A program made the position numbers and the translations under genes. A model generated the notes under the pieces. That model searched no databases. It was not told the origin of the DNA and saw only the letters and a list, made by a program, of their open reading frames with translations. A stretch of DNA of 24,718 nt from a virus: positions 1-24,718 of the IMG/VR virus record IMGVR_UViG_3300038369_000016. One strand, 5' to 3'. How positions within the stretch are numbered: the first letter of the stretch is position 1; each line of letters opens with the position of its first letter. Shown here piece by piece: positions 19,274 through 23,570 of the stretch.

Positions 19274-19681
19274 ATGTCTGAGCTTACTGTCGGTAGGATT
19301 GGGGAGTTAATCTGTTGTTTACGATTAGAGGAGATAGGTATTCCCAACGAGATTGCACACATCAACGGATTTGATTTAGCTGCTCATTACAATAACAGAT
19401 TAATACGAGTACAAGTTAAAGCCAGAACAGTTCCTGATACTCGTAGAAAAAATGTTTATATGTTTACTACATCAAAGGGAGCTAAGAAAAAAATTGCACT
19501 AACCAGAAAAGAATGTGATGTTATTGGATTAGTAGCTATCCCAGAAAAATCAGTTATATTTATGCCTGTCAAAACAAAAGTAAATGTTACAGCAAGAGTT
19601 AAAATTTCTGAGTTTAAAAAAAAAGACATTGCCCTCATCACATGGAATCAGGCAATGCGTACCCTAAAGTATTCTGATTGA
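19274..19681 (+). CDS. PD-(D/E)XK-family nuclease-like protein
   Basis: A 135-residue protein beginning one base after the endolysin stop. The N-terminal half follows the nuclease pattern of archaeal Holliday junction resolvase-like and group I intron endonuclease-like PD-(D/E)XK proteins: VGRIGELICCLRLEE (E11 in the first helix), GFDLAAHY (D34) and RLIRVQVKAR (Q47, K49). The usual E-X-K is Q-V-K here, as in many members that use Gln. Lys/Arg-rich strands follow, and WNQAMRTL closes the protein. It could resolve junctions or trim DNA during packaging. It ends 18 bases inside the convergent LexA-like gene. Confidence 0.6.
   Translation: MSELTVGRIGELICCLRLEEIGIPNEIAHINGFDLAAHYNNRLIRVQVKARTVPDTRRKNVYMFTTSKGAKKKIALTRKECDVIGLVAIPEKSVIFMPVKTKVNVTARVKISEFKKKDIALITWNQAMRTLKYSD
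19612..19656 (-). terminator. Candidate intrinsic terminator of the leftward operon
   Basis: Read on the minus strand, ATTGCC (19656-19651) and GGCAAT (19633-19628) form a six-base-pair stem with a 17-base loop (a T-G wobble can extend it), followed at 19624-19616 by nine Ts. It begins eight bases after the stop of the last leftward gene (19664), which supports a real role. It lies within the convergent nuclease coding sequence. Confidence 0.5.
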
Positions 19682-19870
19682 CCTTGATGAACCTTTGATT
19701 CTCGTTATCTTTTTATCAACCTCTAATTTTGTTAAGGCTTGTATAACTGCTGAACGAGTATTATGTCCAAGTGCATCAGCAATCTCTGCTTGAGTTGGTG
19801 GGAATCCATTACTGCTAGAGTAGGATATTATAAAGTCAAATACACTTTCTTTTAACGATTTAGTTTTCAT
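19664..19870 (-). CDS. Stand-alone LexA-type DNA-binding domain protein
   Basis: A 68-residue protein from the ATG at 19870, chosen because AGGAGG (19883-19878) lies seven bases upstream; a TTG six bases earlier is less likely. The whole protein is a LexA N-terminal winged-helix domain: LKESVFDFIISYSSSNGFPP, TQAEIADALGHNTRSAVIQAL (helix-turn-helix, about 26-47), TKLEVDKKITRIKGSSRSIRIL (wing). There is no S24 protease/dimerisation domain, so it cannot self-cleave like LexA. It may regulate phage promoters, or compete at host SOS sites. It is the last gene of the leftward operon and overlaps the preceding gene by eleven bases. Confidence 0.8.
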   Translation of the reverse strand: MKTKSLKESVFDFIISYSSSNGFPPTQAEIADALGHNTRSAVIQALTKLEVDKKITRIKGSSRSIRIL

Positions 19871-20594
19871 TTTCAAACCTCCTAATTTTTTCGTCTATGT
19901 TACTAAAAGTATCGTCATTATTTATTTTTCTAAGATAAGCAATCCGAGTGTCATTTAACTCAAAAAAATCTTTAATGTATTGTATTTTTTCATCTGGTCT
20001 TTTCTTATCGCTTTCAAATATCTTATCTAACATTGAATCAATATCATCAATAAGGTCATTTGGTGTTTCGTATGTTTTTTTCTTACCACCAGGAAACGAT
20101 AGTGTCCATTCAGGGGTATTAGCTTGTTGTATAGCCTCTTTTAAGTCTTTGGTACTACCACTCATCTTACCTGCGTTTTGCGACCTGGTGGCTTTCTCTG
20201 TGGCTTTTTTTTTCTTTTTAGCTATGTCCATCTCCAAGGATGAGGCATATTCACCACCACTTAGTCCACAACTAGATAAAGCTCTACCGATTGCACTCGT
20301 TTCACAATTTTCTACAGCAGAAGTTTTATTGACATAACCCTGTCCTCTAATTTCTTCGGCATATCCACATCCAACTATAGTGCCTTCAAGGTCTTTGATT
20401 ACAGCTTTAAAAACTATTCGCTTACCATCATCAACAACCATAGAAGTTTCTATGCCATAATTAAATTCGCAATACTTTCTAAAGACATCAACTCTGTCTT
20501 GAACTTGCGTATATTTTTTACCACCTCTTTGAGGCACTCCTTGAGTCTGATTTAACTCTTGGATTTCATTCATCATATCTTTCATTTTATTCAT
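19860..20594 (-). CDS. Probable single-strand annealing / ssDNA-binding recombination protein
   Basis: A 244-residue protein with an AAAGGA site, directly downstream of the exonuclease and overlapping it by eight bases. Residues 30-85 (RVDVFRKYCEFNYGIETSMV, then IVFKAVIKDLEGTIVGCGYAEE) and the motif at 89-121 (NKTSAVENCETSAIGRALSS, then GEYASSLEM) match phage proteins annotated as Erf/Rad52-like or ssDNA-binding recombination factors. 'VEN.ETSAIGRAL...G' is the key signature. A basic KKKKK stretch follows at about 126-130, then a variable acidic C-terminal half. Paired with the YqaJ exonuclease it would anneal the 3' single strands made by that enzyme. The exact family is not certain. Confidence 0.6.
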   Translation of the reverse strand: MNKMKDMMNEIQELNQTQGVPQRGGKKYTQVQDRVDVFRKYCEFNYGIETSMVVDDGKRIVFKAVIKDLEGTIVGCGYAEEIRGQGYVNKTSAVENCETSAIGRALSSCGLSGGEYASSLEMDIAKKKKKATEKATRSQNAGKMSGSTKDLKEAIQQANTPEWTLSFPGGKKKTYETPNDLIDDIDSMLDKIFESDKKRPDEKIQYIKDFFELNDTRIAYLRKINNDDTFSNIDEKIRRFENEN

Positions 20595-21546: not shown

Positions 21547-21712
21547 AAGGCACTTCCTGTATTGGGTTCATGTGAAGGTTATAACATTCATCATCAGAGG
21601 CACAAGTTACAAGTAAAAACATATATGCCATGACCATAAATATTGTTATTAAAAGTATTGAAGGTATTACCTCCAGATAATCTTTGAGATGTTTTAATAT
21701 TTTATTTCTCAT
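21527..21712 (-). CDS. Small membrane protein with paired cysteines
   Basis: 61 residues from the ATG at 21712, chosen because it shares ATGA with the upstream stop and has AAAGGA in front; a start at 21733 would add seven residues. A basic N-terminus (MRNKILKHLKDYLE) precedes one hydrophobic segment at about 15-36 (PSILLITIFMVMAYMFLLVT), then C37 and C43 in an acidic loop and a short soluble tail ending VSNNE. The layout suggests an inner-membrane protein with the tail outside. The lipobox fit (LVTC) is poor. Roles such as superinfection exclusion are possible but unsupported by homology. Confidence 0.55.
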   Translation of the reverse strand: MRNKILKHLKDYLEVIPSILLITIFMVMAYMFLLVTCASDDECYNLHMNPIQEVPYVSNNE

Positions 21713-21915
21713 TCTTTTTCCTTTGTTACACATTGTTGTTTATATTTCGTATATCCGAATATATTTAATGATGGATTTTTTGGGTCAGCCTTTGACCAAC
21801 CCTTATCAACCCATACGCAAGTATATTGTCTTTCATTGTTTTTCTTTTGCACAAAGAAGTCTGCATTGCTCCAAGAATACAAGTTAAAGACAAGACCAAT
21901 AATTAATGTTTCCAT
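21709..21915 (-). CDS. Small probably exported protein with two cysteines
   Basis: A 68-residue protein with a TAGGAG site. The N-terminus METLIIGLVFNLYSWSNA looks like a short signal peptide, with a plausible cleavage after SNA. The mature part is Lys/Trp/Tyr-rich (QYTCVWVDKGWSKADPKNPS, then YTKYKQQC) with two cysteines that could form a disulphide in the periplasm. It lies between the serine recombinase and the membrane protein gene, with which it is coupled by ATGA. The general plan resembles the product at 23319. I recognise no family; an envelope-acting early protein is the best guess. Confidence 0.5.
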   Translation of the reverse strand: METLIIGLVFNLYSWSNADFFVQKKNNERQYTCVWVDKGWSKADPKNPSLNIFGYTKYKQQCVTKEKE

Positions 21916-21923
21916 TATTTCTC

Positions 21924-22634
21924 CTAGTGAAGTGTTGATATTCTATCTAAAGCTCTCTTAACTGTGGAGGCACTCCAACTACAACCTCTGGCAGTTTTTA
22001 TATTACGAACATTTAAATAATTAGCCATACCAAGTAAAGACCTGGAATGATTCTTTGCATCGTTGAGATGAATCTGAACCTTGGATAAATTTCTCATGGC
22101 TTTTTGCTTTACAGCTTCAGTAGCTTTTGCTCTAGCCTTATCCATAGAGTTATGAACACCGAGTTTCGTCATCTTACGATTTGTAGATTTAGTAATGTAG
22201 TAACCTTTTTCAGCAATAGAAGTTTTCATCTCTAAACATTTTTCTTTTTGCTTGGCAGATAAATCCCTTCTGTATTGGTCAGACATAATCGCATTGACAC
22301 CAAACATAATTCTATTTTTATCTTCAGTTATCTCTGGATTATTACACACCACTAAATTAAAATTTTTATTATCTCTAAACTTCATCATGTCATAGTCCAA
22401 ACGACCTAACCTAGAAATATCCGCAGCTAGAATAGTTGTACCTCTTGGTGCAGTTTTAAGTACAGAACCGAGTTTAGGTCTGTCAAGGATAGGCACTCCA
22501 CCTGAAGTACCTATCTCCTCAACAAACTCAACATTGTCTGTAATGTTATTACGATTTATGTAATCATTGATGATAAACTTTTGCCTATCAATGTCTGATT
22601 GGTCATTACTTAATCTGATGTATGCTACTATCAT
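21924..22634 (-). CDS. Small serine recombinase (resolvase/invertase family)
   Basis: A 236-residue protein. The catalytic domain (about 1-140) has the family start MIVAYIRLSNDQSDIDRQKF, with nucleophile S9 and nearby R7, then GTSGGVPILDRP (R52) and the conserved ADISRLGRLDYD loop (R75, R78). After a long helix (YRRDLSAKQKEKCLEMKTSI) a DNA-binding end follows, with ANYLNVRNIKTARGCSWSAS, TVKRALDRI, like the HTH of Recombinase-type enzymes. It is far shorter than large serine integrases, so integration is possible but not assured; plasmid-type resolution or inversion are alternatives. It shares a base with the upstream stop. No att-like core was found nearby. Confidence 0.82.
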   Translation of the reverse strand: MIVAYIRLSNDQSDIDRQKFIINDYINRNNITDNVEFVEEIGTSGGVPILDRPKLGSVLKTAPRGTTILAADISRLGRLDYDMMKFRDNKNFNLVVCNNPEITEDKNRIMFGVNAIMSDQYRRDLSAKQKEKCLEMKTSIAEKGYYITKSTNRKMTKLGVHNSMDKARAKATEAVKQKAMRNLSKVQIHLNDAKNHSRSLLGMANYLNVRNIKTARGCSWSASTVKRALDRISTLH

Positions 22635-22852
22635 TATGTTGATTCCTTTCCGTTGGGTAGTTCATACACTTTTTTTATGTATTGCATTTGTATGTCATGA
22701 CTATTATTAGGGAATAAACTTTTTAATTCTTGCATTTTTTCTTCACTAAAATGTAAAATATTAGTTTCATTCTCCACATTATAAAGAACCCTTACAAAAC
22801 ACTTTTTTTTGTCTAATGGTATAGCAACAAATTTTATTTCATATTTATTCAT
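22634..22852 (-). CDS. Hypothetical protein, 72 residues
   Basis: A small soluble protein (MNKYEIKFVAIPLDKKKCFV, then NILHFSEEKMQELKSLFPNN, ending KKVYELPNGKEST) with an AGGAG site. The predicted order is beta strands first, then helices. It is the second gene of the leftward operon and shares its stop with the recombinase start (TAATG), so the two are translationally coupled. I recognise no family. Early operon position and coupling make it a candidate partner of the recombinase or a small host-takeover protein; this is inference. Confidence 0.55.
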   Translation of the reverse strand: MNKYEIKFVAIPLDKKKCFVRVLYNVENETNILHFSEEKMQELKSLFPNNSHDIQMQYIKKVYELPNGKEST

Positions 22853-22862
22853 TATTTTTCTC

Positions 22863-23027
22863 CTATTTTATGCCTAAGAATTTTAGCATTTCTGTATGTA
22901 CCTTTTCTTTTTCTTTCTCGTTTTTTACATGACAATCAATACTTACTTCAATATGGTCATCCCAATAAGTCAAATACAAATCATAGAAAATATTTTTAAC
23001 AATAACTTTTGCTTGTTTTTGGTTCAT
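22863..23027 (-). CDS. Hypothetical protein, 54 residues, first gene of the leftward operon
   Basis: Below the size usually reported. The ATG at 23027-23025 follows a strong AAGGAAGG ribosome site and lies about 35 bases downstream of the likely start of the leftward transcript. It encodes MNQKQAKVIVKNIFYDLYLT, then a segment with WDDHIEVSIDCHVKNEKEKEK, ending EMLKFLGIK and a TAG stop. A helix-strand-helix pattern with an acidic middle and Lys/Glu-rich helix is likely. The next gene starts ten bases later. There is no recognisable family. First position next to a regulated promoter suggests high early expression. Confidence 0.6.
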   Translation of the reverse strand: MNQKQAKVIVKNIFYDLYLTYWDDHIEVSIDCHVKNEKEKEKVHTEMLKFLGIK

Positions 23028-23045
23028 AGTTTACCTTCCTTTGTT

Positions 23046-23149
23046 ATAGGCATAATTGCCTACTATACATTATATATATTTCTGATATATTGTCAAATGC
23101 CTACCTATATTTTTTGGTATCCTTCCCCATAACTAGCCATAGGTAGGCA
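23046..23149. promoter_or_regulatory. Operator cluster with four TGCCTA/TAGGCA elements
   Basis: ATAGGCA (23046-23052) and TGCCTACTAT (23057-23066) form a near-palindrome at the leftward start point. TGCCTACCTAT (23098-23108) sits beside the leftward -35 box, and its exact inverted copy ATAGGTAGGCA (23139-23149) lies just before the rightward regulator gene. The TGCCTA elements at 23057 and 23098 are 41 bases apart, and so are the centres of the 11-base copies, close to four helical turns. Such an arrangement is expected for a repressor binding cooperatively to control both directions. Confidence 0.7.
23069..23096 (-). promoter_or_regulatory. Leftward sigma70-type promoter
   Basis: On the minus strand, TTGACA (23096-23091) and TATAAT (23074-23069), both perfect consensus boxes, are separated by 16 bases. 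Transcription would start near 23062 and read the recombination operon, whose first ribosome site follows. A putative operator lies at the start point and another just upstream of the -35 box, so the promoter is probably repressible. Confidence 0.78.
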
Positions 23150-23163
23150 CAGAAAGGATGATT

Positions 23164-23319
23164 ATGAAAGGTTTATTTATTAGAATTGATGAGAAAGTTT
23201 ACGACAGATTAAAGAAAGAATCTAAAAATAAAAGAGTTCCTATGGGTAGGCTTGTTGAGCATTATTGTGAGGAGGGTTTACAGGACCAAGGTGCATTCAG
23301 AAGATTGTTTGGTTTCTAG
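23164..23319 (+). CDS. Ribbon-helix-helix DNA-binding protein (Arc/CopG-type), candidate repressor
   Basis: A 51-residue protein from the ATG at 23164, with AAGGA five bases upstream (an ATG at 23158 overlaps that site). The sequence MKGLFIRIDEKVYDRLKKES gives the beta strand and first helix; KNKRVPMGRLVEHYCEEGLQ gives the turn and second helix; RRLFGF ends it. This matches the minimal ribbon-helix-helix fold of dimeric repressors such as Arc, Mnt and CopG, where the strand contacts DNA. It is encoded directly beside the operator cluster and is first in the rightward early operon, so autoregulation and control of the leftward promoter are likely. Its stop overlaps the next gene's GTG. Confidence 0.68.
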   Translation: MKGLFIRIDEKVYDRLKKESKNKRVPMGRLVEHYCEEGLQDQGAFRRLFGF

Positions 23320-23570
23320 TGTTTGTTAAATTTGCAATTTGGATTATGGTTTTTTCTAATTACCCTCCACCAGCAAATCATTATTATGTAGGTGATACTA
23401 ATACTTGTAAAAACGCACAGGAATTAGTTGACGATTGGATAGCTAGACATCATAAACCAAAAGGTTATTACGGATGGGTATGCCTTAAATGGGAGGAACA
23501 TTTAAATTTATTATATGCTGGAAGGCGATATAAGGACCGAGTGAACGATGACAAAATACAAAGCGATTAG
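23319..23570 (+). CDS. Small protein with hydrophobic N-terminus and two cysteines
   Basis: 83 residues from a GTG that overlaps the upstream TAG by one base; an ATG at 23346 would remove nine residues. The N-terminus MFVKFAIWIMVFSNYPPPAN is hydrophobic and could act as a signal or anchor. The rest (YYVGDTNTCKNAQELVDDWI, HHKPKGYYGWVCLKWEEH) has two cysteines about 30 residues apart and many aromatic residues, suggesting a small disulphide-bonded extracytoplasmic domain. Its end overlaps the next gene by 23 bases. There is no known family; it resembles in plan the exported protein at 21709-21915. Confidence 0.5.
   Translation: MFVKFAIWIMVFSNYPPPANHYYVGDTNTCKNAQELVDDWIARHHKPKGYYGWVCLKWEEHLNLLYAGRRYKDRVNDDKIQSD

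Follow-up and report, generated by a model that had tools for sequence, protein, structure and literature searches.

A predicted ribbon-helix-helix switch with a palindromic operator and a probable mRNA leader hairpin in a small marine podovirus

The control region and the genes around it

The control region described here belongs to a small marine podovirus and lies in IMG/VR record IMGVR_UViG_3300038369_000016, of which positions 1-24,718 make up the stretch of DNA analyzed as a whole (24,718 nt), referred to below as the window. Two overlapping, divergently pointing sigma-70-type promoters are predicted in this region, one directed leftward toward a pair of small cargo genes and a serine recombinase, the other rightward toward the gene of a 51-aa ribbon-helix-helix (RHH) protein. 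The features on which the argument rests are given below, from left to right.

19664-19876, far end of the leftward operon: LexA-like HTH protein, 70 aa, with only a LexA DNA-binding domain (6.1e-9)
21924-22634, minus strand: small serine recombinase, 236 aa (Pfam Resolvase, 1.2e-16; PHROG integrase/DNA invertase)
22634-22852, minus strand: second cargo gene, 72 aa, function unassigned; L039, which has three cargo genes, carries it as the third
22863-23027, minus strand: first cargo gene, 54 aa, function unassigned; replaced or absent in phages 86-97% identical outside this slot
23047, 23057, 23098 and 23144: TGCCTA/TAGGCA elements, read directly
23047-23062, no strand: predicted palindromic operator O1, TAGGCA-TAAT-TGCCTA, 16 bp, on the predicted leftward start point
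23069-23096, minus strand: predicted leftward promoter TTGACA-N16-TATAAT, a 12/12 consensus match, with its start predicted at about 23062, within O1
23083-23091, plus strand: predicted rightward extended -10 of the RHH gene, TGATATATT, overlapping the leftward -35; start predicted at about 23098
23098-23108, plus strand: arm 1, or half-site 3, TGCCTACCTAT, of a predicted 5'-terminal hairpin in the RHH leader
23109-23138, plus strand: loop of that hairpin, pyrimidine-rich with CCUUCC, read directly
23139-23149, plus strand: arm 2, or half-site 4, ATAGGTAGGCA, directly 5' of the RHH ribosome site
23164-23319, plus strand: 51-aa RHH protein (MKGLFIRIDEKVYDRLKKES...), the predicted repressor, with the ribosome site AGAAAGG just upstream

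An earlier, sequence-only reading of this DNA had reported the leftward promoter, the four elements, the near-palindrome, the inverted pair and the 51-residue gene, all of which lie where it placed them and are unlikely to have arisen by chance. A perfect TTGACA-N16-TATAAT occurs once in the whole window, against 0.08 expected from shuffles, and four TGCCTA/TAGGCA copies inside 23028-23163 arise with a frequency of 5e-5 in dinucleotide shuffles (5/100,000), any 6-mer (low-complexity ones excluded) reaching four copies in the region in 1.4% of shuffles. The arms TGCCTACCTAT and ATAGGTAGGCA form an exact 11-base inverted pair with centres 41 apart, and a pair of this length appears in 0.3% of shuffles of the region. 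The window overall has no excess of TGCCTA (13 observed vs 11.5 expected); an extra copy at 22871-22876 lies beyond the switch, immediately before the second cargo gene. That reading had missed two features, the rightward extended -10 and the fact that the first leftward gene is variable.

The start of the RHH gene is best placed at 23164, because the alternative in-frame ATG at 23158, which would give 53 aa, abuts the AAAGG ribosome site with zero spacing. The suggestion that the product is an Arc-like RHH protein is supported by its best family match, PHROG 3180 'Arc-like repressor' (E=4.7e-5), and by an AlphaFold2 monomer (pLDDT 80.5) in which helices 10-23 and 27-40 follow residues 1-9, as in the helix-helix layout of the RHH fold, whose N-terminal strand forms only in the dimer. 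Less decisive are the Pfam RHH/CopG-type models, which match below their curated cut-offs, and the leading Foldseek matches in the PDB (AmrZ-DNA, Arc, CopG and PutA), which are weak (E about 1 with a monomer query), as is to be expected of a 51-residue monomer of an intertwined dimer; sequence searches of the PDB returned chance matches only. From the agreement of the PHROG, Pfam, AlphaFold2 and Foldseek results, we take the 51-aa product to be an RHH protein; its contact strand carries G-F-R. The genes that follow it in the rightward operon are probably replication/recombination genes.

Relatives, exchange of the cargo slot, and the predicted operator O1

Scans of IMG/VR yielded about 40 viral loci with an RHH gene, in which the RHH protein is 90-98% (class A), about 56-62% (class B) or about 44% (class C) identical to that of the window, with class D consisting of a single contig, L204. 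A pattern scan of viral contigs with TAGGCATNATTGCCTA returned 104 stretches, and those that could be assigned were already known members. A search of 84,980 bacterial and archaeal genomes turned up no relatives of either the RHH protein or the recombinase. The named phages contained neither nucleotide relatives of the window nor relatives of the RHH protein, and their recombinase matches were distant, at 27% along most of the protein's length or 37-39% along one third of it. By its capsid, the nearest cultured relative is Methylophilales phage MEP301 (58.8%).

The leftward operon also holds a RecE/YqaJ-like exonuclease and probably an Erf-like gene, the LexA-like HTH protein at its far end being a possible second regulator. 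Between the leftward promoter and the serine recombinase lie 0-3 small genes, varying by relative, and the recombinase is the first leftward gene in L036, L043, L067 and L072. L005 matches the window at about 97% identity on either flank of a segment, 22638-23029, that has no match between the two, and homology with relatives resumes at 23030; the cargo genes are joined at the start codon, and some of them are shared, at up to 99% identity, by loci with class A, B and C promoters. In the recombinase block (21907-22650) the window shares 92% identity with class C phages, whereas the other aligned pieces of those phages in this stretch of genome are mostly 66-81% identical, which points to a recent move between lineages. 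Thus, as the alignments suggest, cargo and recombinase appear to be exchanged, and the switch remains in its lineage. Mobility of the switch itself was rejected, the alignment showing that it is the recombinase block that moves and that the switch is lineage-bound. A small cysteine-containing protein of the leftward operon (21709-21915) is related to the 63-aa protein that the first gene of the rightward operon encodes in class C phages (33%, E 8e-10), its gene standing on the opposite side of the switch from that relative.

In classes A and B, O1 reads TAGGCA-TMAT-TGCCTA, with one base altered in a few loci; in class C it reads TAGGTA-AAAA-TACCTA, and in the one contig of class D TAGACA-TAAT-TGTCTA. 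Its half-site centres are separated by 10 bp, and between classes it changes symmetrically, in both half-sites at once. The contact strand of the RHH protein is G-F-R, S-L-R, A-V-R or N-L-R in classes A and B and Q-N-R in classes C and D, and it changes together with the site, G-F-R, S-L-R or A-V-R accompanying TAGGCA and Q-N-R accompanying TAGGTA or TAGACA, in a covariation that rests on about two evolutionary changes, class D being one contig. Covariation of the operator with the N-terminal contact residues, as in Arc/Mnt-type systems, is present here in few independent events, and the sequence-only reading, which had linked the TGCCTA sites to the regulator, is supported in that O1 follows the RHH class across relatives.

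The distribution of recombinase types separates two possible readers of these elements. Resolvases bind several inverted subsites adjoining their own gene, and the serine recombinase lies within the leftward operon, at its head in the four loci named above, so that the elements could be res-like sites of this enzyme (cf. Tn3 res) and the RHH gene merely a neighbour. Class C phages, however, share an identical O1 with recombinases either about 95% or about 34% identical to that of the window, while class A phages with the recombinase of the 95% type have an O1 different from that of class C, and the half-sites are only 6 bp long with centres 10 bp apart. Recombinase binding sites were rejected on this independent assortment of operator and recombinase type, and we hold them to be very improbable. 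O1 goes with the type of the RHH protein, not with that of the recombinase, and this speaks for the RHH protein as its reader. The proposal that this protein controls the recombination/serine-recombinase operon likewise gains support from the comparison of O1 across classes.

The location of O1 is consistent with this assignment. The leftward promoter matches 10-11/12 consensus positions in class A relatives and 8-11/12 in classes B-D, and its -10 usually ends 5-9 bp before the operator, the gap being 5-6 bp in most relatives; the predicted leftward start, taken from the -10 element, coincides with O1 in most loci, and in L063 and L204 the best-scoring match is poorly placed, which, like the weaker scores in classes B-D, counts against the assignment. 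Paired half-sites thus lie over the controlled start point, as in Arc/Mnt-type systems, with the start placed from the promoter. In searches of whole records the palindrome has at most one intergenic copy per genome, G001 and G003 lacking an exact match because they carry a one-base variant. A regulon of O1 sites was rejected on the basis of this single palindrome per genome, the second match in G006 falling inside a coding frame.

In AmrZ, GGC half-sites are read via Lys18, Val20 and Arg22, the Val at the middle contact position, which is hydrophilic in most RHH proteins, selecting cytosine, where thymine would clash (PMC3325190). This rule fits the window family by analogy, hydrophobic F, L or V being found with GGC and N with GGT.

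Another candidate reader of O1 is the LexA-like HTH protein, which has a recognizable DNA-binding domain and likewise varies between genomes of classes A and C (43% identity); the RHH protein would then have another role. We consider this unlikely. Classes A and B have the same operator, yet their LexA-like proteins are about one-third different, as are their RHH proteins; the changing residues of the RHH protein occupy known DNA-contact positions, and the half-site size and spacing fit dimers of RHH dimers. A further alternative retains the RHH protein as reader and alters its role. Short RHH proteins that bind their own promoters are common among antitoxins. RelB is one example (PMC2812701), and the window protein has weak CopG-antitoxin and ParD-like matches, as would suit an antitoxin of a toxin-antitoxin pair whose autoregulatory operator is the palindrome. 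Against this, no toxin family was found beside the RHH gene, the 83-aa gene next after it (23319-23570) having no significant match in Pfam or PHROG; in class C the RHH gene is preceded by a different small ORF; and O1 sits on the promoter of the opposite operon. An antitoxin therefore strikes us as highly improbable, and we retain the RHH protein as the predicted repressor acting on O1.

The second pair of elements and the leader of the RHH mRNA

A TGNTA-type extended -10 is present in 25/25 loci tabulated, 6-9 bp (mostly 6) before arm 1, a spacing that puts the expected start of the RHH transcript at arm 1. The arm sequences differ between classes (TGCCTACCTAT/ATAGGTAGGCA in A, CCTAAATGTAC/GTGCATTTAGG in B, GGTAGATGTAAC/GTTATGCCTACC in C and CCTAGATGTTAC/GTGATATCTAGG in D), with pairing retained in all of them. 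In classes A and B, 87% of the alignment cells are paired, compared with 20-44% when the arms are slid, and four pairs are changed on both sides; in classes C and D, 96% are paired and three pairs are changed on both sides; the arm alignments behind these figures were hand-written, with a made-up linker for the loop and 6 (A/B) and 4 (C/D) distinct rows, so that shuffle counts made on them are indicative only. The leader of the window folds with -16.9 kcal/mol (z -3.6), leaders across loci having z values of -2.5 to -7.1, and the arm helix includes G-U pairs, which indicate RNA. On the strength of the two-sided changes and the G-U pairs, we read the arms as a 5'-terminal RNA hairpin whose stem is kept by compensatory changes, the transcript start being placed from the extended -10; the arms, that is, probably form the 5'-terminal hairpin of the RHH mRNA.

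The four core pairs of the arms (CCTA/TAGG) are invariant within classes A and B and match the core of O1, and the class D arms contain TAGA, as does the class D O1. Half-sites 3 and 4 may double as DNA operators, a role less certain than that in the hairpin. The sequence-only reading had treated all four elements as operators, which is supported for O1; the second pair behaves as an RNA stem in which the half-site core is retained. One could go further and regard the four elements as nothing but 5'-terminal RNA hairpins that stabilize both divergent mRNAs, with no DNA operator present, since both predicted transcripts start with an inverted repeat and the rightward repeat has compensatory changes and G-U pairs. 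We think this quite unlikely: O1 retains its exact 6-4-6 sequence, single O1 variants (L036, L048, L058 and L069) break the pairing and are uncompensated, O1 changes together with the RHH contact residues, and a pure RNA stem would not need the constancy of the four core pairs of half-sites 3 and 4 in classes A and B.

The loop was also considered as a pairing partner. A pseudoknot between the loop and the ribosome site of the RHH gene itself was rejected, its strength in most loci being no greater than in shuffles. Duplexes of the loop with the leftward ribosome site have own-class means of -12.8 (A), -16.7 (B) and -12.8 (C) kcal/mol, and each loop pairs less well with the leftward leaders of other classes than with those of its own; the match goes beyond shuffles in class B (0-3.4%) and in some class C loci, and is not significant in the window (15% of shuffles; third of 40 ribosome sites). 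A two-level switch, in which the RHH protein represses, the loop of the RHH mRNA blocks the ribosome site of the cargo mRNA and the stem bases are operators too, is in our estimate doubtful.

Other hairpins are found in class C and D leaders. The class C leaders L059 and L069-L072, which lie before the 63-aa ORF, have a second strong hairpin ahead of the first rightward gene, its stem kept and its sequence widely variable among contigs (GGGAGAAT, GTAGAGAGAATC, GTAGGGAAAA, GGGAGAGAGA). Most class C and D leftward leaders (L056-L072 and L204) carry a small hairpin, GGC-N6-GCC, between operator and ribosome site, which in L204 takes the form GGGC-N6-GCCC; it was not seen in class A or B.

The proposed switch and its known counterparts

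Taken together, the comparisons make an Arc/AmrZ-type RHH switch acting on O1, with a hairpin leader and shut-off of the leftward operon, the explanation that we consider likely. The leftward promoter would drive the cargo genes, the serine recombinase, the RecE/YqaJ-like exonuclease and probably the Erf-like gene, and the rightward promoter would drive the RHH gene followed by the probable replication/recombination genes. Two RHH dimers would sit side by side on O1, in the manner of Arc and AmrZ, covering the leftward start point and turning the leftward operon off, and this repression should free the rightward promoter because the two promoters overlap. Half-sites 3 and 4 would lie within the stem of the hairpin that opens the RHH mRNA at its very 5' end, where the same bases would provide transcript structure (stability or translation control) and possibly autoregulatory operators. 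Conservation of the sequence, the covariation of O1 with the RHH type and the compensatory changes in the hairpin are observed; the binding, repression, start sites and timing of the switch are what we infer from the DNA. Its role would be to shut off early recombination and cargo genes in lytic infection, and we prefer such a timing role to a lysogeny switch: the finding of no RHH or recombinase relatives in the 84,980 genomes leads to this reading, and we see no indication of lysogeny, the lack of relatives in those genomes not being proof. The recombinase, at 236 aa, is shorter than serine integrases.

The loci, from marine phages that are mostly uncultured, form a natural series of one small repressor family and three operator sequences matched to it, and this series makes RHH recognition rules testable, with a hydrophobic middle residue for GGC and asparagine for GGT. 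Bases of the operator half-sites apparently also belong to a conserved hairpin at the 5' end of the mRNA. The switch stands above a cargo slot that differs between near-identical phages, and thereby locates fast-changing accessory genes.

Among cultured phages, MEP301 (MW452941; PMC8024684) has the same gene order of resolvase-type recombinase, YqaJ and ERF, together with an RHH-like gene, gp52 (read from its sequence), beside RusA. It differs in that the window recombinase has no tblastn match there, gp52 cannot be aligned to the window RHH protein, and there is no TAGG-type 6-4-6 palindrome and no control region of this kind. The text of the MEP301 paper (PMC8024684) contains neither the word 'repressor' nor the word 'ribbon'; gp52 (L186 32729-32890) is a regulator candidate.

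Among RHH proteins, the plasmid repressor CopG resembles the window protein as a minimal RHH repressor and as a Foldseek fold match. CopG serves plasmid copy control, without a divergent recombination operon. Arc of Salmonella phage P22 is a similarly short RHH protein (53 aa, vs 51 in the window) with an operator of two half-sites about one turn apart. Arc has a Q-N-R contact triad and operator half-sites beginning TAGA; the class C and D proteins share this triad, and the class D half-sites also begin TAGA. In contrast to these likenesses, the window protein has the triad G-F-R and no sequence homology to Arc detectable in PDB searches, the target genes are others, and no lysogeny genes were seen in the window phage. 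To our knowledge, no hairpin leader has been described for Arc. AmrZ of Pseudomonas aeruginosa (PDB 3qoq; PMC3325190) differs in being a cellular regulator with a C-terminal domain, similar at the level of the fold only, and in having a 5-bp linker, compared with 6 bp in the window (GGC to GCC); it resembles the proposed switch in binding as a dimer of dimers to two GGC half-sites across an A/T-rich linker, in its hydrophobic middle contact residue, and in autorepression.
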